Below are positions 12,819-45,625 of a stretch of 64,000 bases of DNA, in pieces. Location of the stretch: NCBI GenBank assembly GCA_903861645.1, contig CAIOVE010000098.1:62001-126000 (forward strand), read 5' to 3'. Position 1 is the stretch's first letter; each line of letters opens with the position of its first letter. The translations under genes and the position numbers were made by a program. Source of the stretch: an uncultured Hyphomicrobiales bacterium (lineage in GTDB: Bacteria > Pseudomonadota > Alphaproteobacteria > Rhizobiales > Beijerinckiaceae). Below the pieces are notes generated by a model. That model was not told the origin of the DNA. It did no database searches and saw only the letters and a program-made list of their open reading frames with translations.

Positions 12819-13541
12819 ATGGCGGATCAGGCCATACCGCGGCGCGGATTCTTGAAGGGAGCCGGCGTCGCTGGCGCTGGCGCGGCGGCCGCGCTGACAG
12901 GCGGGGCGGCGCAAGCTCAAACTCCGGCGCCCGCTGTCACAGCTGCTGCCAAGCAAGTCGCGCCGAACGAGCCGCTGCTGGCCCTGACCGCCGCCGAGGC
13001 GGCATTCTTCACCGCGGCCTTCGATACGCTGATCCCCGCCGACAAGCTTTCGCCGTCCGGCAGCGAATGCGGTCTGGTGACATTCATGGACAGGCAGCTC
13101 GCCGGCGCCTGGGGCAATGGCGCGCGGCTTTATCGCGCCGGGCCCTTCATGCCCGGCAAGCCCGAGCAGGGCTACCAGTTGCCGCTGACGCCGCGCGAGT
13201 TTTTCGCGGCCGGAATCAAGGCCGCCAACGCCTACGCCCGCAAGACCTTCGGCAAGGATTTCGACCGTCTGTCGCCCACCGACCGCGAGGCCGCTATGAA
13301 GGCGATGGAAAGCGGGCAAGCGCAATTTCCCGACTTTGCCTCGAAGATGTTTTTCGAGGCGCTTTACGCGTCGGCCATGGAGGGCTTTTTCGCCGACCCC
13401 ATCCATGGCGGCAATCGCGACAAGGCGTCGTGGCGCATGATCGGCTACCCCGGATTGCCGGCCACCTACGCGCGGACAGCGGAGCAATACCGCGGCAAGA
13501 AACTCAACATCGAACCGCAATCCATCGCCGACTTCATCTGA
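12819..13541 (+). CDS. Tat-exported gluconate 2-dehydrogenase subunit 3 family protein
   Basis: 240 aa. The N-terminus has a twin-arginine signal (PRRGFLKGAGVAG, then an Ala-rich stretch ending AQA), so it is exported folded to the periplasm. The rest matches the small gamma subunit of membrane-bound gluconate/sorbitol-type dehydrogenases, which lacks cofactors and escorts the FAD subunit through Tat. The GMC subunit starts 11 nt downstream and a cytochrome c follows, so the three genes form a dehydrogenase complex. The actual substrate is unknown. Confidence 0.82.
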   Translation: MADQAIPRRGFLKGAGVAGAGAAAALTGGAAQAQTPAPAVTAAAKQVAPNEPLLALTAAEAAFFTAAFDTLIPADKLSPSGSECGLVTFMDRQLAGAWGNGARLYRAGPFMPGKPEQGYQLPLTPREFFAAGIKAANAYARKTFGKDFDRLSPTDREAAMKAMESGQAQFPDFASKMFFEALYASAMEGFFADPIHGGNRDKASWRMIGYPGLPATYARTAEQYRGKKLNIEPQSIADFI

Positions 13542-13552
13542 CGGGGGACGTC

Positions 13553-15319
13553 ATGGCCAAGGTAATGAAATCGGTCGACGTTGTGATCGTCGGTCTGGGA
13601 TGGTCGGGCTCGATCATGGCCCGTGAACTGACGAAGGCGGGACTGAACGTAGTCGCGCTCGAGCGCGGCGCCGAGCGAACGCCCGCCGAGGATTTCGTGT
13701 TTCCCTATATCCGCGACGAGCTGAAGGTGCGCGTGCGCAACGGGCTCATGCTCGACACGGCGACGGAAACGCTGACCATGCGCAACGCGCCGGGCGACAC
13801 CGCGCTGCCCATGCGTCGTTGGGACGTGTTTTCGCTGGGCGACAACGTCGGCGGCGCCGGCTCGCACTGGAATGGCATCACGTGGCGTTTCACGCCGAGC
13901 GAATTCGTGCTGCGCAGCCACTTGCGGGAGCGCTACGGCCGCGACGCCATACCCGCCGAACTGCAATTGCAGGACTGGGGCGTCACCTACGACGATCTGG
14001 AGCCGCATTACGACCGCTTCGAGAAACTCTGCGGCACGTCGGGCAAGGCGGGCAATCTCAAGGGCAGGATCGTCGAGGGCGGCAACCCGTTCGAGGGGCC
14101 ACGATCCGATGAATATCCCAACAAGCCGCTGATCATGTCGCAGGCGGGGCTGATGCTGACCAAGGCGGCGCGCGAACTGGGACTGCATCCGTTTCCCACG
14201 CCGGCGTCCAACTCCAGCGCGCCCTACACGAATCCGGAGGGCTGCGCGATCGGCCAATGCCAGTATTGCGGCCACTGCGAATATTTCGGCTGCGAGGCCA
14301 ACGCCAAGGCGAGCCCCAACATCTGCCTGCACCCCGTGCTGTTCCGCGATCCGAAATTCGAGTTGCGGACCCTGTCTTACGTGAAGAGCCTCAACTACGA
14401 CGCGCAGTCGCGACGCGTGCGCGGCGTCGTCTATATCGACCGCCGCACGGGCGAGGAAGTCGAGCAGCCGGCCGAGATGGTCGTGCTGTGCGCCTATCCC
14501 TTCAACAATGTTCTGCTGATGCGTCTGGCCGGCATCGGCAAGCCCTACGATCCCGCGACGGGCGAGGGCGTCATCGGCAAGAATTATTGCTACCAGACCA
14601 ATTCGGCCGTTGGCGTCTTCGTGGACGAGGAGATCAATCCCTTCATTGGCACCGGCGTTTCGCCCGCCGTCGTCGACGACTTTCAGGGCGACAATTTCGA
14701 TCACGGCCCGCTCGGCTTTTTCGGCGGCGGATATATTTCGCCGACGGTCAGCGGCGGGCGTCCGATTCAGGTGCGCGCGACGCCGCCCGGCACGCCACGC
14801 TGGGGCGCGGCGTGGAAGGAAGCCACGGCGCAATGGTACAATCACTGGTTCCCGCTCTCCATTCACGGCACCAGCTACGCGCATCGCAACAACTATCTCG
14901 ACCTTGATCCGACCTATCGCGACGCGATTGGCCGGCCGCTCGTGCGCATGACATTCAACTATCCCGAGAACGACAGGAAAATGTCGGTTTTCCTCACCAA
15001 CAAGGCCAACGACATCGCCAAGGCCATGAACGCCAGGTTCACGACGCCCGCGCCGCGCACGTCGAATTTCGGCGCCGCCAACGGGCAGGCGTCGCATCAC
15101 ACGGGCGGCGTCATCATGGGAACCGATCCGAAAACCAGCGCGCTCAATCGCTATCTGCAAAGCTGGGATTGCGACAACCTGTTCGTCATGGGCGGCGCGG
15201 CCTTCCCGCAAAACGCCGGCCACAATCCCACGGGCACCATCGCGGCGCTGGCCTATTGGTCGGCGAAGGCGATCACCGAGCAATATATCAAGGCGCCGGG
15301 GCGGCTCGTGCATGGCTGA
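13553..15319 (+). CDS. GMC-family FAD-dependent dehydrogenase, large subunit
   Basis: 588 aa. The Rossmann FAD motif VIVGLGWSGS lies near residues 11-20, and the C-terminal GMC segment includes NAGHNPTGTIAAL. A cysteine cluster (C231, C236, C239, C242, C247 in CAIGQCQYCGHCEYFGC) lies where membrane-bound FAD-dependent glucose, gluconate and fructose dehydrogenases carry a [3Fe-4S]-binding loop; here the spacing is CX4CX2CX2CX4C. It probably oxidises a sugar, sugar acid or alcohol in the periplasm after export with the Tat-signalled subunit upstream, since it has no signal of its own. It overlaps the downstream cytochrome gene by 8 nt. The substrate is not predictable. Confidence 0.85.
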   Translation: MAKVMKSVDVVIVGLGWSGSIMARELTKAGLNVVALERGAERTPAEDFVFPYIRDELKVRVRNGLMLDTATETLTMRNAPGDTALPMRRWDVFSLGDNVGGAGSHWNGITWRFTPSEFVLRSHLRERYGRDAIPAELQLQDWGVTYDDLEPHYDRFEKLCGTSGKAGNLKGRIVEGGNPFEGPRSDEYPNKPLIMSQAGLMLTKAARELGLHPFPTPASNSSAPYTNPEGCAIGQCQYCGHCEYFGCEANAKASPNICLHPVLFRDPKFELRTLSYVKSLNYDAQSRRVRGVVYIDRRTGEEVEQPAEMVVLCAYPFNNVLLMRLAGIGKPYDPATGEGVIGKNYCYQTNSAVGVFVDEEINPFIGTGVSPAVVDDFQGDNFDHGPLGFFGGGYISPTVSGGRPIQVRATPPGTPRWGAAWKEATAQWYNHWFPLSIHGTSYAHRNNYLDLDPTYRDAIGRPLVRMTFNYPENDRKMSVFLTNKANDIAKAMNARFTTPAPRTSNFGAANGQASHHTGGVIMGTDPKTSALNRYLQSWDCDNLFVMGGAAFPQNAGHNPTGTIAALAYWSAKAITEQYIKAPGRLVHG

Positions 15320-15674
15320 CGCGAGGTTCTTGCTGGTGGCCGCCGGACTGTTGTGCGCGACTTCGCCGGCCTTGGCGGGCGACGCCGCGCGTGGCAAGCA
15401 GGTGTTCCAGATCTGCGCGGCCTGCCATGGCGACCAACCGGGCGATCTCGGCCCAAGCCTTGTCGGCGTTGTCGGGCGCAAGGCCGGCGCGCGCGACGAC
15501 TATCGTTATTCCGGGCCCATGTCGCGGGCGGATTTCACCTGGGACCGCGAGCGCCTGCGTTCGTTCCTGCGCGATCCGCGTGGCGTGGTGAAAGGCACGA
15601 AAATGCCGTTCGATGGACTCGCCGACGAGGGCGAAATAGATGACGTCATCGAATTCCTCGCGTCGCGCCCCTAG
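15312..15674 (+). CDS. Periplasmic monoheme cytochrome c
   Basis: 120 aa with a Sec signal (MADARFLLVAAGLLCATSPALA). One haem site CAACH near residues 35-39 and a downstream TKMPF Met ligand mark a class I cytochrome c. It overlaps the end of the GMC gene, so it is probably the electron acceptor of that dehydrogenase. Canonical membrane-bound gluconate dehydrogenases use a triheme cytochrome; this one has a single haem and no membrane anchor, so it should be soluble and pass electrons onward. Confidence 0.88.
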   Translation: MADARFLLVAAGLLCATSPALAGDAARGKQVFQICAACHGDQPGDLGPSLVGVVGRKAGARDDYRYSGPMSRADFTWDRERLRSFLRDPRGVVKGTKMPFDGLADEGEIDDVIEFLASRP

Positions 15675-25616: not shown

Positions 25617-26651
25617 ATGACGGCATGGAAAGCCCTTGCGCTGGCGGCGACATTCGCCATTGCCGCGACTGGCGGCGCGATGGCGCAAAACCGCAAGGTG
25701 ACGATCGGCAACACGCTGTCGGCGACCGACATCGGCCTTTGGGTGGCGCACAAGAAGGGCTTTTTCCGCGACGAGGGCATCGACGCCGAATTCATCACCT
25801 TCGATTCCGCCGCGCGGATGATCGCCGCGGCCGGCACCGGCGAGCTTGATGTCGTGGCGGGCGGGCACTCCGCCGGCCTGTTCAACGCGGTCGGGCGCGG
25901 CATCGATATCCGCATCGTCGCCGACAAGAGCCAGAACGTCACCGGGCGCAGCAGCATCAAGATGCTCGTGCGCAAAGATCTCGTCGATTCCGGGCGCTAC
26001 AGGAGCTACGCGGATCTCAAGGGCCTGAAGGTCGCCGAGGCCGCGCCGGGCGGGTCGGCCCAGCCGATCGTCGTGAAGTTCCTGGAGAAGGCGGGGCTCG
26101 GATATGGCGATATCGAGCATGTCTACATGGCCTTTCCGCAGATGGCCGTGGCGCTGCAAAACAAGGCCATCGATGTCGCTATCCCCGCCGAGCCCTCGGT
26201 GACGCAGGCGCTGCGCATGGGCGGCGTTGTCGCCGTCGCCAATGATTACGATGTTTATCCCGTGCATGAAGTGTCGGAGATCATGTATTCCGGCAAGTTC
26301 GCCAAGACCGACCCGGAACTGGCGCGCAAATTCATGAAGGCGTTTCTGCGCGGCGTGCGCTACCACAACGACGCGCTGGGCCCCAATGGCGAATTCGTCG
26401 GCGCGCGCGGCGACGAGATCGTCGCCATCGCGACCGAATACGGCCCTTTCAAGGACCCCGCCGTCTGGCGTTCGTTCATCCTGAGCTATTGCGGCCCGGA
26501 TGGCGAATTGCACGTGCCGAGCCTCAAGGAGGATCTCGACATTTTCCGCAAGCTGGGGCTCATTGAATCCGATGTCACCATCGACAAGGTCATCGACACG
26601 AGCTTCGCGACCGCCGCGGTCAAGGAACTCGGGCCCTACAAGAAAAACTAG
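25617..26651 (+). CDS. NitT/TauT (NMT1-like) ABC substrate-binding protein, copy 1
   Basis: 344 aa with a Sec signal ending in AMAQ. The sequence has the type-2 periplasmic fold features: IGLWVAHKKGFFRDEGIDAE, then ARMIAAAGTGELDVVAGG, GIDIRIVADK, and a C-terminal VIDTSFATAAVKELGPYKK. Family members bind sulfonates, nitrate, thiamine precursors or aromatic acids. It is the first of three tandem paralogues. No ABC permease or ATPase is adjacent. A short hairpin separates it from copy 2. Confidence 0.87.
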   Translation: MTAWKALALAATFAIAATGGAMAQNRKVTIGNTLSATDIGLWVAHKKGFFRDEGIDAEFITFDSAARMIAAAGTGELDVVAGGHSAGLFNAVGRGIDIRIVADKSQNVTGRSSIKMLVRKDLVDSGRYRSYADLKGLKVAEAAPGGSAQPIVVKFLEKAGLGYGDIEHVYMAFPQMAVALQNKAIDVAIPAEPSVTQALRMGGVVAVANDYDVYPVHEVSEIMYSGKFAKTDPELARKFMKAFLRGVRYHNDALGPNGEFVGARGDEIVAIATEYGPFKDPAVWRSFILSYCGPDGELHVPSLKEDLDIFRKLGLIESDVTIDKVIDTSFATAAVKELGPYKKN

Positions 26652-26652
26652 G

Positions 26653-26671
26653 CCGCGCGCCTGACGCGCGG
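26653..26671 (+). terminator. Hairpin between binding-protein copies 1 and 2
   Basis: A 7-bp stem (CCGCGCG / CGCGCGG) with a 5-nt loop begins directly after the stop codon of copy 1. There is no T-run. It could reduce read-through or stabilise the upstream mRNA, as such hairpins do in other binding-protein operons. Confidence 0.35.
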
Positions 26672-26698
26672 ACACTAACGGGAGAGGGAACGTCACGC

Positions 26699-27733
26699 AT
26701 GATGGCGAGGCCGTTGGCGATTGCATTGATGGGCCTTGCCTGCGTCGCGACGTCGACGTGGGCGGACGAAGCTCGTAAACTGAACGTCGGCATCACCAAT
26801 TCAGCGAGCGACGTTTGCCTTTTCGTCGCCGACGCCCATGGCTATTTCAAGCGCGAGGGGCTCGACGTCAATTTCGTCAAGTTCGATTCCGCCGCGCGCA
26901 TGATCGCGCCATTCGCGTCGGGCGAGCTCGACGTGGGCGCGGGCGGGCCATCGGCGGGACTATTCAACGCCGTCGCGCGCGGCATCGACATCCGCGTTGT
27001 CGCGGACAAGACCTCGACCATTCCCGGGCGTCCCATCAATTTCCTCATCGTGCGCAAGGACCACGTCGACTCCGGTCGTTACAAGACCTTGGCCGATCTG
27101 CGCGGCATGAAGATCGGCGGCGCGGCGCCGGGCGGCGCGGCGACCGCGACCCTGCACAAGCTGCTGGTCATGGCGGGCCTCAAGACCGCCGACATCGAGC
27201 GCGTCTATCTCGGCTTTCCGCAACAGGTCATCGCCATCCAGAACAAGGCGATCGACGCGGCCATGCCGACGGAGCCCTTCGTCACCGACTCCGTCGTCAA
27301 CGGCTCGGCCGTCCGCGTCATGGGCGATGACGTCATCTATCCAGGCCATCAACTGGCGACGCTTTTCTACACGGGCCAGTTCATCAAGAAGGATCCCGAG
27401 GCGGCGCGCCGCTTCATGCGCGCCTATATCCTCGCCGCGCGCGACTATAACGACGCGATTGTCGGCCAGCATCTCGCCGGTCCGAAGGGCGAGGAAATGA
27501 TCTCCATTCTCACGCGCTATTCGCTCGTCACCGACCCCGCCGTGCATCGCTCGCTGACCGCCGTCAACATCGATCCCGACGGGCGCGTCAACGCCGACAG
27601 TCTGCGCGAGGACGTCGATATATTCGCCGCCGAGGGTCTGCTCGAAGGCAAGCTGGATATGAACAAGGTCATCGACACGTCGATCGCTGAATCCGTCGTG
27701 CGCGATATTGGCGCATATGTTCGCAAACCCTGA
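26699..27733 (+). CDS. NitT/TauT (NMT1-like) ABC substrate-binding protein, copy 2
   Basis: 344 aa with a Sec signal (MMARPLAIALMGLACVATSTWA). It is closely related to the gene on each side: it shares ARMIAPFASGELDVGAGGPSAG, GIDIRVVADK and HVDSGRYKTLADLRGMKIG with copy 3. The related position of every conserved block implies tandem duplication. It has an Ala/Val-rich signal and no lipobox. No transport partner is adjacent. Confidence 0.87.
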   Translation: MMARPLAIALMGLACVATSTWADEARKLNVGITNSASDVCLFVADAHGYFKREGLDVNFVKFDSAARMIAPFASGELDVGAGGPSAGLFNAVARGIDIRVVADKTSTIPGRPINFLIVRKDHVDSGRYKTLADLRGMKIGGAAPGGAATATLHKLLVMAGLKTADIERVYLGFPQQVIAIQNKAIDAAMPTEPFVTDSVVNGSAVRVMGDDVIYPGHQLATLFYTGQFIKKDPEAARRFMRAYILAARDYNDAIVGQHLAGPKGEEMISILTRYSLVTDPAVHRSLTAVNIDPDGRVNADSLREDVDIFAAEGLLEGKLDMNKVIDTSIAESVVRDIGAYVRKP

Positions 27734-27763
27734 ATTTACCCGACGCCAACCGGAGCGCGCGCG

Positions 27764-28783
27764 ATGAAATCGATTTTGACGGCGCTTGCCCTCGTGGCGC
27801 TTTCGCCCACGACGCTCTCCGCGCAAACCGCCGTAACGGTGGGCATCGCCAATTCCGCGACGGATGTCGGCGTCTTCGTCGCCGACAAGCGCGGCTACTT
27901 CAGGAGCGAGGGACTCGACGTGACGTTGACGCCCTTCGACGCGGGCGCGCGCATGATCGCGCCCTTCGCGTCGGGCGACCTCGACATTGGCGCGGCCGGC
28001 CCCTCGGCGGCGCTTTATAACGCGGTGGCGCGCGGCATCGACATTCGCGTGGTCGCCGACAAGGGGTCGACGCCCGCGGGGCGCCCGATCAGTTATCTGC
28101 TCGTGCGCAAGGATCACGTCGATTCCGGGCGCTACAAGACGCTCGCCGATCTCAAGGGCATGAAGATCGCCAATTCCGCGCCGGGCGCCTCGGCGAACAC
28201 GGTGCTGGCGAAGTTGCTGCAAAAGGCGGGTCTTTCCGTCGCCGATGTCGAGCGTGTTTATCTCGGGTTCCCGCAGCAGGCGCTGGCCTTGCAAAACAAG
28301 GCCGTGGACGCGGCGCTGCCCGTCGAGCCGGCGGCGAGCGCGGCGGTGCGCGATGGCTCCGCGGCGCGCATCGCGGGCGACGATACGATCTATCCCGATC
28401 ACCAGATCGCGACGATCTTTTATTCGGGCCAGTTCATCGCAAAAAAGCCGGAGGCGGCGCGCAAGTTCATGCGCGCCTATCTGCGCGGCGTGCGCGATTA
28501 CAACGACGGCATCGTTGACGGACATTTGCGCGGCGACAAGGGCGAGGCGATCATCGCCATCCTCGCCGAATACAGCACGATCAAGGATCCCGCGATCCAT
28601 CGCGCCATCTCCGCGGCCAATATCGATCCAGATGGCAAGGTCAATGTCGCCAGCCTCGCCGAGGATCTGTCCATCTTCGCCAGCGAGGGACTGATCGAGG
28701 GCAAGGTCGACTTGGCCAGGGCTGTTGACATGACGTTCGTCAACGCGGCGGTGAAGGAACTCGGGCCCTATAAAAAGCCCTGA
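27764..28783 (+). CDS. NitT/TauT (NMT1-like) ABC substrate-binding protein, copy 3
   Basis: 339 aa with a Sec signal ending TLSAQ. It is the most similar to copy 2: NSATDVGVFVADKRGYFRSEG, ARMIAPFASGDLDIGAAGPSAA and KDHVDSGRYKTLADLKGMKI all have direct equivalents. Its C-terminus (NAAVKELGPYKKP) instead resembles copy 1, which suggests gene conversion or retention of an ancestral state. It starts 30 nt after copy 2 and ends 9 nt before a convergent cytochrome gene. Confidence 0.87.
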   Translation: MKSILTALALVALSPTTLSAQTAVTVGIANSATDVGVFVADKRGYFRSEGLDVTLTPFDAGARMIAPFASGDLDIGAAGPSAALYNAVARGIDIRVVADKGSTPAGRPISYLLVRKDHVDSGRYKTLADLKGMKIANSAPGASANTVLAKLLQKAGLSVADVERVYLGFPQQALALQNKAVDAALPVEPAASAAVRDGSAARIAGDDTIYPDHQIATIFYSGQFIAKKPEAARKFMRAYLRGVRDYNDGIVDGHLRGDKGEAIIAILAEYSTIKDPAIHRAISAANIDPDGKVNVASLAEDLSIFASEGLIEGKVDLARAVDMTFVNAAVKELGPYKKP

Positions 28784-28792
28784 GTAGGGCCG

Positions 28793-29299
28793 TTACGGCT
28801 TGCCCGGCAGTTTCTCGCGCAAGTAAGCCGTTATGATTTTGGCCTCGTCCGCCGTCATCGGCGCGCCGATGTCGAGCATGTGGCCGACCACGCGGTCCCA
28901 GTCCTTGCGGCCGAGCCGTTCCGTGCCGACCTTCTGCAAATCGTGGCAGGCCACGCAGCGCTGTTCGACCAGTTGCTTGCCATCGCCTTCGGGCAGCGTC
29001 ACCGCGGTCGCGGGCGGCAGATTGACGCCCGGCGCGAAGTTGCTCGCGAGATAGTTCACGACGGTTTCCACCTCGGCGTTCTTGATCTGGGCGCCGCGCA
29101 GGATCATGTCGTGCACGTGAAATCGCCAGCCCGTGGGCCCTTCGCGCAATGTCATGATGATCGTGGGCTGGTGACATTGCACGCAGGCGACCGAAACAAT
29201 CTCGCGGCCCTCGCCGGGGGGCCATTGCGGTTGCTGCGCAAGGGCGGGCGTCGCCGCGGCGAAGGCGAGAAGGGCGATGGAGAGCGAATGACGATTCAT
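28793..29299 (-). CDS. Secreted dihaem cytochrome c
   Basis: 168 aa. The Sec signal MNRHSLSIALLAFAAATPALA is followed by two haem sites, CVQCH near residues 39-43 and CVACH near 114-118, each in its own small domain. The start codon lies 2 nt after the stop of the upstream ThDP-enzyme gene, so the two are almost certainly co-transcribed and co-translated. This suggests it accepts electrons from that enzyme in the periplasm, which is inference. It has no membrane anchor apart from the signal. Confidence 0.85.
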   Translation of the reverse strand: MNRHSLSIALLAFAAATPALAQQPQWPPGEGREIVSVACVQCHQPTIIMTLREGPTGWRFHVHDMILRGAQIKNAEVETVVNYLASNFAPGVNLPPATAVTLPEGDGKQLVEQRCVACHDLQKVGTERLGRKDWDRVVGHMLDIGAPMTADEAKIITAYLREKLPGKP

Positions 29300-29301
29300 G
29301 G

Positions 29302-31191
29302 TCAGACCTTCCGCGTGCGCAGGCCGGCGATCGAATATTCGGGGTGCCACGCGGACGAGGCGCCGATGCCGTCGCGCTGAATGTTCACGTCGAGCAGATA
29401 GGGCCGGCCATCCATGTTGGCCTTTTTGGCGCGCGCCAGCGCGTCCTTGATCTGGCTGGCGTCCTGAACCTTTTCGGCGTCGACGGAAAAAGCCTTCGCC
29501 AGCATGGCGTAATCGACGTCGGGCGAGCCGAGATAACAGGTCATGTCGCGGCCCGCCTTGAACTGCGTTCCGCCGCTCATCCAGATGCGGTTGCGTTCGT
29601 TGTTGTAGCTCTTGTTGTTGAGCACGATGCTCGTCGTCGGCGCCTGATAGCGCGAAAGACTCCACAGCGGCTGGGGGCCGCTGAACAGGAAACTGCCGTC
29701 GCCCACCACCGAAAGCACCTGACGGTTGGGATGGGCCAGCTTGACGCCAAGCCCCGCCGCCATGCCCCAGCCCAGAATGTTCGGGCCCGTGCCGATATAC
29801 GACTTGTCGTCGCCGCCAAAGCTCATGAACGGGTCCATGCGCTTGCCCGAGTCGACGTCGCAGACATAGATCGCGTCCTTGTCGAGCCATTGCTCGAGTT
29901 CCACGCCAAGGCGCTCCATGCGGATCGCCGATCCCTCCGCGTGATCCCGCGCGATCTTCTGGAGGATCTTCGCCTGCTCGCTGGTGTAGTCGCGCACGCG
30001 TTGGCCGCGTTCGTCGGCGATCTGCTTGAGTCGCTCCTTCGTCGCCAGGCTTTTGACCGCGTCGATGAGGTCGATCAACGCCAGTCGAATATCCGCGATC
30101 ATCGGCAGATCAACCGGCGCGTTGCGCGCGATGGAGGCGGGGTCGCGCCGGATCGAAATCTGTTTCGAGCCGGGCATGTAGAGTTCGCCGTGCTTCCAGC
30201 CGACGTTGAGATGCACGTCGACCGCGCCGGGAAAGCGCATCTGGCGCAGCATGGCGCCGATGTAGAGCGGATGGCGCGTGGGGAAGGGCTTCGACCAGAA
30301 GCCCAGCGCGCCCGAGCCGCCGGCGGCGGGCAGGCCCAGCAATTCCGCCAGTTCGACGAGTTCCTTCTCGCCCTTGCACAGCGTGACTTCGTCGCCGAAC
30401 GAGAGAACCGGGTTCATCGCCTCGATCAGCATGCGCGCGGCGCGCTCGATGTCGTCCTTCGACGGACGCATGGTCATCGGCACGTTGAACAGCGCGCCGT
30501 CGTAAATCTGCGCCGACGCCTCCGTGCGCAACAGGTTCTCCGGGAAGGAGAGATAGACTGGCCCCGAGGGCGCGGTTGACGCGTATTTGATCGCGCGTCG
30601 CGCGGTTTCGGGAATCGCCTCCGTGGCCTGCGCCACCCAGCTCCATTTCGTTATGGGCTGGGTCATCTGCTCGATATGTTCGTATTCCTGGAAGGCCTCG
30701 CGCCCGACCGCCTCCTGCGCGACGGAAGCCGCCGCGAGCAGGATCGGAATCTGGTCCTTCCAGCTGTTGACCATCTGGCACAGCGCGTTGGGCAGGCCGA
30801 CGTTGGCGACGATCGCGACGCCGAGCTTTCCGGTGGCGCGGGCGTAGCCGTCGGCCATGGCGACCACGGCGCCTTCCTGCACGCCCTTGATCAGTTGAAT
30901 GCCGGGCTCGTTGACAAGCGAGTCGAAAATCGGCGCGTCGGCCGTCGACGGATTGAAGAAGATAAATTCGACGCCCGCCGCCTTGAGTTGTTGCGTGAAC
31001 AAAGCGCCGCCGGTGCCCTTCATGTCCCTGACGGCGCCGGGCGCCGCGGCCGCGGCTTGCGGTGTCGGTTGCGCCAGATTTTGCGCCATGGCGCTGGCGG
31101 CGACGGATGTCATGCCGGCGGCCGTCAGGCCGGTCGTCAACTCGCGGCGCGAGATTCCCTTGTCGAGAAACTGTTTGACCAGATCCTTCAT
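29302..31191 (-). CDS. Tat-exported thiamine-diphosphate-dependent enzyme (acetolactate synthase-like)
   Basis: 629 aa. The N-terminus MKDLVKQFLDKGISRRELTTGLTAAG...ASAMAQ is a twin-arginine signal (RR at 15-16), unusual for a family that is normally cytosolic. It has the three ThDP-enzyme domains: an N-terminal PYR domain with the catalytic-type Glu in KGVQEGAVVAMADGYARATG, a central domain (about 240-380), and a C-terminal PP domain with GDG at 497-499 and NNKSYNN near 522 for Mg-ThDP binding. Tat export of a folded, cofactor-loaded enzyme is consistent with a periplasmic ThDP reaction. The cytochrome c gene 2 nt downstream points to a redox role. The substrate, perhaps a 2-oxo acid, is unknown. 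Confidence 0.85.
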   Translation of the reverse strand: MKDLVKQFLDKGISRRELTTGLTAAGMTSVAASAMAQNLAQPTPQAAAAAPGAVRDMKGTGGALFTQQLKAAGVEFIFFNPSTADAPIFDSLVNEPGIQLIKGVQEGAVVAMADGYARATGKLGVAIVANVGLPNALCQMVNSWKDQIPILLAAASVAQEAVGREAFQEYEHIEQMTQPITKWSWVAQATEAIPETARRAIKYASTAPSGPVYLSFPENLLRTEASAQIYDGALFNVPMTMRPSKDDIERAARMLIEAMNPVLSFGDEVTLCKGEKELVELAELLGLPAAGGSGALGFWSKPFPTRHPLYIGAMLRQMRFPGAVDVHLNVGWKHGELYMPGSKQISIRRDPASIARNAPVDLPMIADIRLALIDLIDAVKSLATKERLKQIADERGQRVRDYTSEQAKILQKIARDHAEGSAIRMERLGVELEQWLDKDAIYVCDVDSGKRMDPFMSFGGDDKSYIGTGPNILGWGMAAGLGVKLAHPNRQVLSVVGDGSFLFSGPQPLWSLSRYQAPTTSIVLNNKSYNNERNRIWMSGGTQFKAGRDMTCYLGSPDVDYAMLAKAFSVDAEKVQDASQIKDALARAKKANMDGRPYLLDVNIQRDGIGASSAWHPEYSIAGLRTRKV

Positions 31192-43912: not shown

Positions 43913-45625
43913 ATGACACATGAGAAGCCGCCGCGGACGGTCGCCGAGGATTACATGTCGGCCCTGCACGCCTGCGGCGTGAGCCACGTGTTCGCCAATG
44001 GCGGCACGGATTTCGCGCCGATCATCGAAGGCCTCGTGCAGATGAAGGCGCGCGGCGAGCCCGCGCCGGAATTCGTCACCGTGCCGCACGAAAACGTCGC
44101 GACCGCCATGGCGCAGGGCTACTGGAAGGTCGCCGGCAAGCCCGCCGCCGTGATGGTTCATGTCAACGTCGGCACCGCCAACACCATTTGCGCGCTGATG
44201 AACGCCGCGCGCGACAACGTGCCGATGCTGCTGGCCGCCGGGCGCACGCCGCTGACCGAGACCGGACATGCCGGTTCGCGCGATGTGCCGATCCATTGGG
44301 CGCAGGAACAGTTCGATCAGGCCTCGATCGTGCGCGAGAACGTCAAGTGGGATTATGAGCTGCGCCATGGCCAGCCAATCAACACGATTGTCGCCCGCGC
44401 GCTCGATATCGCCATGAGCGAGCCGAAGGGCCCGGTCTATCTGCAATTGCCGCGCGAGGCGCTGGGCGACGACGGAGTCAATCCCGGCCCGGCCATTCGT
44501 TCATTTCCCGCGGGCGCCGCGGCCGCCGCGCCGTCGCTCGCGGCTCTGGAGCAGGCCGCCGACATGATCGCCAAGGCGCAAACGCCGCTCATCATCGCCG
44601 GTCGCCCCGGCGCCTCGCCGGGCGGCTTCGAGGCGCTGGCCGCGCTGACGCTCGACGCGGTGATTCCCGTGGCGAGCGGGTCGCATCCCAACATGCCGTC
44701 GAACCATCCGATGAACCTGGGCATGCTGACCAAGCCGCTGCTGGAATCGGCCGACGTGATCCTCGTGCTGGAGTCCGCGGTGCCGTGGGTGCCGCGCGCC
44801 ATGCAGCCCTCGGCGGACGCCAAGGTCATCCACATTGCGCATGATCCGATGTTCCGCACCATGCCGTTGCGCGGTCACCAGATGGACCTCGCCATCGCCG
44901 GCGATTGCGGGCAGGCGCTCGTCATGCTGCGCGAGATGCTGAAGACCAAGATGCAGGGTCGCGAGACCGCGCGCGACAAGCGTCGCGCGCGCGTCGCCGA
45001 GCTGCGCCAGAAGATCGTCGATGGCCGCAAGGCGACCATCGAGAAGCTGAAGGACACGGCGCCGATCAGCCCGATTCTCGTCGCCCACGCGCTCAACATG
45101 GTGCGCGACGAAAGCGCCATCGTGGTGGAGGAACTCGGCGCGCCGTTCCCCTTCCTCGACATTACGCGTCCCGACAGCTTCATCACCGGCCATTCGGGCG
45201 CCCTGGGCATGGCGCTTGGGCAGGCGCTCGGCGCGAAGCTCGCCGCCGGCAAGCGGCAGGTCATCACCACGGTGGGCGACGGTTCCTACATGTTCGGCGT
45301 GCCGCTCGCGGCGCATTTCGTCGCGCGCGCCGAAAATCTGCCGACGCTGACCATGGTGTTCAACAACTCGCAATGGTACGCGGTGCGCCGCGCGACCATG
45401 TCGATGTATCCCAATGGCGACGCGGCCAAGCAGAACTCGCTGCCCATCGTCGACCTCGCGCCCTCGCCAGACTTCGAGAAGGTCGCCGAGAGCTGCGGCG
45501 GTTATGGCGAGCGCGTCGAGGATCCGGCCAAGCTCATTCCGGCCATCGAGCGCGCGCTCAAGAAGGTCGACGACGGTCAGCAGGTCACGCTCAACGTGAT
45601 CACGGGTCTACGGCCCTACGGCTGA
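43913..45625 (+). CDS. Cytosolic thiamine-diphosphate-dependent enzyme
   Basis: 570 aa with no signal peptide. The PYR domain has TVPHENVATAMAQGYWKVAGKP, with the catalytic Glu; the PP domain has GDGSYMFG (Asp at 456) and FNNSQWYAV. The family covers acetolactate synthase, benzoylformate decarboxylase and similar C-C lyases or ligases. The sequence does not allow a choice. It differs from the Tat-exported paralogue at 29302-31191 in the N-terminal domain and lacks a cytochrome neighbour. The MetE-like gene follows 32 nt later. Confidence 0.86.
   Translation: MTHEKPPRTVAEDYMSALHACGVSHVFANGGTDFAPIIEGLVQMKARGEPAPEFVTVPHENVATAMAQGYWKVAGKPAAVMVHVNVGTANTICALMNAARDNVPMLLAAGRTPLTETGHAGSRDVPIHWAQEQFDQASIVRENVKWDYELRHGQPINTIVARALDIAMSEPKGPVYLQLPREALGDDGVNPGPAIRSFPAGAAAAAPSLAALEQAADMIAKAQTPLIIAGRPGASPGGFEALAALTLDAVIPVASGSHPNMPSNHPMNLGMLTKPLLESADVILVLESAVPWVPRAMQPSADAKVIHIAHDPMFRTMPLRGHQMDLAIAGDCGQALVMLREMLKTKMQGRETARDKRRARVAELRQKIVDGRKATIEKLKDTAPISPILVAHALNMVRDESAIVVEELGAPFPFLDITRPDSFITGHSGALGMALGQALGAKLAAGKRQVITTVGDGSYMFGVPLAAHFVARAENLPTLTMVFNNSQWYAVRRATMSMYPNGDAAKQNSLPIVDLAPSPDFEKVAESCGGYGERVEDPAKLIPAIERALKKVDDGQQVTLNVITGLRPYG

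Follow-up and report, generated by a model that had tools for sequence, protein, structure and literature searches.

A ThDP-dependent enzyme gene adjoins a dihaem cytochrome gene

The window considered here (the whole 64,000-nt stretch of DNA that was analysed, from an uncultured Hyphomicrobiales bacterium) carries on its minus strand a gene for a 629-aa ThDP-dependent enzyme with a twin-arginine leader (29302–31191) and, directly downstream, a gene for a predicted secreted dihaem c-type cytochrome of 168 aa (28793–29299). The enzyme matches the Pfam models TPP_enzyme_N (PF02776; residues 60–170, 30682–31014), TPP_enzyme_M (PF00205; residues 248–373, 30073–30450), and TPP_enzyme_C (PF02775; residues 469–602, 29386–29787) in that order, each of them above its cut-off (89.1, 51.1, and 89.0 bits, respectively). 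The QE-motif Glu of benzoylformate decarboxylase aligns with E106 (30874–30876), the equivalent of the catalytic Glu, and sequence and alignment likewise locate a GDG motif (G497-D498-G499; 29695–29703) and an NN motif (N525-N526; 29614–29619). All of these residues are invariant in 20 of 20 aligned rows, in agreement with a preliminary description of the locus, which had proposed a full-length ThDP enzyme with its catalytic Glu and cofactor motifs intact. Between the leader and the first domain lies an Ala/Pro-rich linker (residues 37–57; 31021–31083) that varies in length and sequence among relatives.

The structure model of the enzyme is weak (mean pLDDT 58.5, pTM 0.50), too weak for work on the active site, and its fold matches (the HKA synthase BbmA, benzaldehyde lyase, acetohydroxyacid synthase, and pyruvate oxidase, with 1pow_A at rank 8) do no more than confirm the superfamily. 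The host genome contains 18 stretches, the gene itself included, that match the enzyme at an E-value of 0.001 or better. A second ThDP enzyme is encoded elsewhere in the window (43913–45625, plus strand); it scores above the cut-off of NCBIfam PRK08327 and has no twin-arginine leader.

The cytochrome begins with a probable Sec-type signal peptide, recognised by eye (residues 1–21, 29237–29299; likely cleavage at A-L-A/Q), in which A19, A21, and the following Q22 are invariant in 9 rows. Two sites are predicted to bind haem: C39-V-Q-C-H43 (29171–29185; sequence and alignment) and C115-V-A-C-H119 (28943–28957; alignment). Behind each CxxCH stand a Trp and a Met that do not vary, the Met residues being the candidate axial ligands M65 (29105–29107) for site 1 and M141 (28877–28879) for site 2, both conserved in 9 of 9 rows; the earlier reading of the gene as a secreted dihaem cytochrome c is thereby upheld. 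In three related cytochromes (L035 9963–10472, L036 6476–6982, and L037 2642–3148) the second haem site reads CGTACH, a CX3CH motif.

The cytochrome passes the cut-off of PF09098 (Dehyd-heme_bind, the haem domain of quinohaemoprotein amine dehydrogenase) at 35.4 versus 25.2 bits. Two more specific identities were rejected: the NCBIfam equivalog model of the quinohaemoprotein amine dehydrogenase alpha subunit gave 33.3 bits against a cut-off of 274.35, and the NCBIfam model of SorB gave 62.7 bits, below its cut-off of 93. A fold search with the structure model (pLDDT 76.9) returned as top matches the quinohaemoprotein amine dehydrogenase dihaem subunit (1jmx_A, E 9e-4) and SorB (2blf_B, E 3.5e-3, TM 0.75 of the target). 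Both SorB and the haem subunit of quinohaemoprotein amine dehydrogenase take electrons from a periplasmic catalytic unit, a role that fits the acceptor function proposed for this cytochrome below.

Three tandem genes for NMT1/SsuA-like substrate-binding proteins (25617–28783, plus strand) lie tail to tail with the cytochrome gene; no permease was found among the genes called beside this array. On the other side, and divergent from the ThDP enzyme gene, is a gene for a TctC-type receptor (PF03401; 31334–32335, plus strand). Arrays of two to five NMT1/SsuA-like relatives occur at the related loci L009, L035, L036, and L037 and not at L011 and L012 (all in clade A, as defined below), and in L038, L039, and L040 the clade B operons are preceded upstream by members of the BLAST cluster of the TctC-type receptor; L055 has a gene similar to the receptor that gave no Pfam match at 0.01. 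Counterparts of both kinds of protein are thus present at several loci and not at all of them. Because of this patchiness, the lack of a visible permease, and the size of the receptor cluster (20 genes among the loci compared), we do not draw the substrate of the enzyme from these neighbours.

The enzyme belongs to a small family with three clades

A scan of genome contigs by sequence pattern, a method limited to close relatives, recovered seven relatives with 58–91% identity to the window protein, all from metagenome-assembled genomes of Alphaproteobacteria. Within the window's genus, the enzyme family is present in 13 of 51 genomes. Wider draws gave at least 11 of 397 genomes from the window's family (all 11 in the window's genus), at least 3 of 385 from the class (its own genome included), and, as a lower bound, the window's own genome only in draws of 397 genomes from the order and 398 from the phylum; these counts are lower bounds since at most three candidates were scored per genome. 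In the distant family f92, the enzyme was found in four of five genomes, in two of these as leaderless pieces at contig ends. Among plasmid records there were no relatives of the enzyme at an E-value of 1e-60 and three at 1e-30, none of them more than 29% identical, and no match to the cytochrome at 1e-5; viral contigs yielded no relatives.

For the comparisons that follow, loci duplicated between our two collections, as recognised from the length and content of their contigs, were counted once (L032 with L009, L033 with L010, L034 with L012, and L056 with L011). A tree was built from 21 members together with 8 other ThDP enzymes (seven from the host genome plus benzoylformate decarboxylase). 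A branch supported at 100/100 sets the members apart, and they divide into clade A (11 rows, 100/100), which includes the window protein, clade B (6 rows, 100/100), and clade C (4 rows, 100/99). Identity to the window protein is 58–91% for its clade A relatives and 36–39% for clades B and C (about 37% for clade B). The outgroup branches are long, so the tree does not settle which enzyme is the nearest outside relative.

The N-terminal leader is conserved and probably directs export

The window enzyme starts with an N-terminal leader (residues 1–36; 31084–31191) whose sequence, MKDLVKQFLDKGISRRELTTGLTAAGMTSVAASAMA, contains S14-R15-R16 and is followed by Q37 after a proposed cleavage site at A36/Q37. 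Its twin arginine (R15-R16; 31144–31149) is part of a set of residues (M1, L4, S14, R15, R16, and G26) that are invariant, with constant spacing, in 20 of 20 aligned rows, down to 36% identity; the S/T-R-R motif of Tat substrates is therefore present throughout these rows. Arginines occupy residues 15–16 in all 21 leader rows, and the pair is retained in every homologue examined that has a full leader, a point on which the preliminary description had suggested that the proposal might fail. Farther along, the leaders show A-x-A sites and then the variable linker. Pooled over 28 pairs of eight clade A coding sequences, pN/pS is 0.25 for residues 1–17 and 0.25 for residues 18–37; the core has a value of 0.29 and the linker one of 0.53, so that the leader, like the core, is maintained by purifying selection. 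No such leader was seen in seven other ThDP enzymes of the host genome (7 of the 17 other matched stretches). TatC is present in the host genome.

The leader is atypical, and general Tat models respond to it poorly. Among five leaders tested, TIGR01409 scored above cut-off for one (L047), fell just short for another (L014), and did not match the remaining three, the window leader among them; PF10518 was above cut-off for none of the five, and formate_TAT gave weak matches, far below cut-off, for three (E 0.003–0.7). Charged residues interrupt the hydrophobic stretch in all six clade B leaders and in three of the four clade C leaders compared. The n-region, moreover, is conserved in length and sequence to a degree that is unusual among signal peptides.

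This last feature could instead indicate that a conserved helical segment for docking, and no signal, forms the N-terminus, leaving the enzyme in the cytosol with the cytochrome as a mere neighbour. Such an account would also suit the lack of a match between the window leader and the standard Tat models, and the weak structure model does place short helices at residues 2–11, 15–24, and 29–39. It is difficult to reconcile, however, with the invariant SRR, with A-x-A sites that give way to a variable linker, and with a linkage to cytochromes that recurs in two gene layouts (see the next section), and we regard it as very improbable. From these sequence features, we consider the leader an atypical Tat signal and export of the ThDP enzyme likely, as had been suggested when its twin-arginine motif was first noticed.

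Linkage to cytochrome genes recurs in two gene layouts

In the window, the stop codon of the enzyme gene is separated from the start of the cytochrome gene by 2 nt (29300–29301), exactly the spacing given in the preliminary description. A dihaem cytochrome gene lies directly downstream of the enzyme gene in all nine clade A loci with room for one; L015, which ends inside the enzyme gene, and L010, which ends just after it, were set aside. The gap is 2 nt in seven of these nine loci, 3 nt in L012, and a 1-nt overlap in L013, and the recurrence of the 2-nt spacing indicates that it is no accident of the window genome.

Clade B shows a different arrangement. A monohaem cytochrome gene sits immediately upstream of the enzyme gene in seven of seven loci (gaps of 14–86 nt), and a second follows 1–2 nt downstream in five of the six loci with room. 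The exception is L042, which lacks this second gene; L043 ends 63 nt past the enzyme gene and does have the upstream cytochrome. Over clades A and B together, downstream gaps range from -1 to 3 nt; a few of the starts used for the upstream and downstream gaps have in-frame alternatives. Alignment shows that the upstream cytochrome of clade B and haem domain 1 of the window cytochrome are homologous, and the A3 profile of the dihaem cytochrome matches the upstream cytochromes of clade B in six genomes (E 2e-14 to 3e-16). The one downstream cytochrome scanned, that of L038, matches Cytochrome_CBB3 above cut-off. With haem domains fused in clade A and carried by separate proteins in clade B, an enzyme accompanied by two haem domains thus recurs in two gene layouts. 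Downstream of the clade B enzyme in L042 (3892–5764, minus strand) there is also a protein gene together with a cytochrome c gene, a pair that we take to resemble SoxC and SoxD.

Across the 51 genomes of the genus, the cytochrome was detected at an E-value of 1e-12 in 14 and the enzyme in 13, with both present in 13; that is, the cytochrome occurs in 13 of 13 enzyme carriers versus 1 of the 38 other genomes (Fisher p 2.9e-11, uncorrected for kinship). The match in the fourteenth genome, G1473, covers the second haem region only. There are 16 cytochrome matches in all, of which 13 lie beside the enzyme gene, one lies at a contig end (in G699, where the cytochrome match starts at a contig end and the clade A enzyme gene also ends at one), and two lie elsewhere (G1473:C6 and G630:C129). 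The linkage counts and the co-occurrence within the genus lead us to reject chance adjacency of the enzyme and cytochrome genes for clades A and B.

No cytochrome gene was found within 1.5 kb of the enzyme gene in any of the four clade C loci. In their wider flanks (one side being short in L045 and L046), the sole frame with a CxxCH was one of 137 aa in L047, which we did not take for a cytochrome, and in the family to which clade C belongs weak cytochrome matches occurred in two of five genomes (best E 9e-10, with internal stops). Clade C thus has the leader with no cytochrome close by, and not every branch of the family need have a cytochrome. The proposal that the gene pair is conserved therefore stands for clade A (9/9), stands in a modified layout for clade B, and does not extend to clade C (0/4).

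A putative periplasmic ThDP-dependent oxidoreductase

We propose, with about an even chance of being right, that the gene pair encodes a periplasmic ThDP-dependent oxidoreductase for which the adjacent c-type cytochrome serves as electron acceptor. A direct partnership of the two proteins, an oxidative chemistry, and a 2-oxo acid or related carbonyl as the substrate class are plausible from the sequences. The preliminary description's suggestion of an oxidative decarboxylation whose electrons reach the cytochrome is thus partly supported, and it is the reading that we favour. The enzyme would fold and load ThDP and its metal in the cytoplasm and leave through Tat in the folded state; once exported, it would attack a 2-oxo acid or related carbonyl to form a ThDP carbanion/enamine, whose electrons would pass to the c-type cytochrome encoded alongside and from there to the respiratory chain.

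By sequence, the best match of known structure is benzoylformate decarboxylase (E 1.6e-49), and by profile the first is BbmA. An identity as benzoylformate decarboxylase was rejected: the NCBIfam model gave 223.4 bits against a cut-off of 493, and both catalytic histidines are missing, His70 aligning with Val or a gap and His281 with a gap or Tyr in two alignments. In benzoylformate decarboxylase these histidines handle protons, and their loss would fit an enamine whose fate is other than simple protonation to an aldehyde. The window enzyme also lacks the FAD motifs of acetolactate synthase (presumably GGG, LGMHG, and RFDDR) in an alignment with an acetolactate-synthase-like row of the host genome that has them (L002, taken for acetolactate synthase from its own sequence and its gene neighbours). 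With neither the usual protonation of the enamine nor the usual FAD site, and with a cytochrome linked to the enzyme, electrons could pass straight to haem.

Against the oxidoreductase reading stand the same absence of any visible acetolactate-synthase-type FAD site to bridge ThDP and haem, the existence of clade C with its leader and no cytochrome, the failure of the Tat models on the window leader, and the weakness of the ThDP enzyme model. Part of this evidence would suit a periplasmic lyase or carboligase with non-oxidative ThDP chemistry, which would release an aldehyde or ketol while the cytochrome served a product-oxidising dehydrogenase or was simply co-regulated. The nearest solved relatives are indeed lyases or ligases (benzoylformate decarboxylase, the HKA synthase BbmA, and benzaldehyde lyase), and both the missing FAD motif and the cytochrome-free clade C would be natural for such an enzyme. 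The window enzyme lacks the benzoylformate decarboxylase histidines, however, and among the neighbouring genes listed, no other dehydrogenase gene or gene cluster is common to every locus of clades A and B; we consider a lyase or carboligase rather unlikely.

A second alternative keeps the oxidative chemistry but places FAD between ThDP and the cytochrome, as in a pyruvate-oxidase-like enzyme relocated to the periplasm. FAD is the classical route for ThDP oxidases such as PoxB, and 1pow_A does appear among the fold matches; yet the acetolactate synthase FAD motifs are present in the host's acetolactate-synthase-like row and absent from the window protein, and we hold a flavin-bridged enzyme to be improbable.

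Returning to the cytochrome-linked oxidoreductase, its most far-reaching form would be a new, flavin-free class with ThDP as the only catalytic cofactor, in which haem c oxidises the enamine one electron at a time and the haem domains are either fused (clade A) or supplied as two proteins from flanking genes (clade B). Ferricyanide oxidises ThDP enamines in vitro, which makes one-electron acceptors chemically possible; a literature search on ferricyanide or one-electron oxidation of ThDP enamines found nothing relevant. We advance this flavin-free form tentatively, as a possibility well short of even.

To our knowledge, ThDP chemistry is a cytoplasmic chemistry. Among the titles and abstract openings listed in a literature search that covered few subscription papers, no exported or cytochrome-linked ThDP enzyme is described, and none of those listed for the cytochrome describes such an enzyme; one passage of PMC3305326 mentions thiamine a single time, within a COG name. 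If the proposal is correct, these bacteria could oxidise 2-oxo acids or related carbonyls with no need to take them up, an exported, cytochrome-coupled branch of the ThDP enzymes would extend the list of Tat-exported cofactors, and, should the system be flavin-free, a direct electron route from ThDP to haem would exist. The cytochrome linkage in two of the three clades may point to a new entry route for electrons into the respiratory chain, and conservation of the gene pair makes the proposal testable with two purified proteins.

Comparison with known systems

The window system shares features with four kinds of characterised enzyme. With benzoylformate decarboxylase and BbmA, the enzyme shares the three-domain ThDP fold; the known enzymes of this type are cytosolic, and benzoylformate decarboxylase has two catalytic histidines, both of which the window enzyme lacks. 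The likeness to PoxB and pyruvate oxidase lies in the common superfamily and, as proposed here, in the delivery of electrons from a ThDP adduct to respiration. PoxB (pyruvate:quinone oxidoreductase) is, however, cytosolic and FAD-dependent and reduces quinone, whereas the window enzyme carries a twin-arginine leader, is linked to a c-type cytochrome, and shows none of the FAD motifs of acetolactate synthase.

Gluconate-2-dehydrogenase-type GMC complexes resemble the locus in layout, combining a dehydrogenase and a cytochrome c with a protein that bears a Tat leader, and are a known type of cytochrome-linked periplasmic dehydrogenase; their enzyme is an FAD-dependent GMC oxidoreductase with a fold unrelated to that of ThDP enzymes. 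The window happens to contain such a set as well (12819–15674, plus strand), where genes for a gluconate-2-dehydrogenase-like subunit 3 (PF13618; a twin-arginine leader was recognised by eye), a GMC oxidoreductase, and a monohaem cytochrome c stand in tandem.

In mode of action, the proposed system would parallel SorAB sulfite dehydrogenase and quinohaemoprotein amine dehydrogenase, in which a periplasmic catalytic unit has a c-type cytochrome as its acceptor. The window cytochrome matches SorB, below the NCBIfam cut-off, and the haem domain of the amine dehydrogenase, above the Pfam cut-off. The catalytic cofactor of those two systems is Mo or a quinone; in the system proposed here, it would be ThDP.
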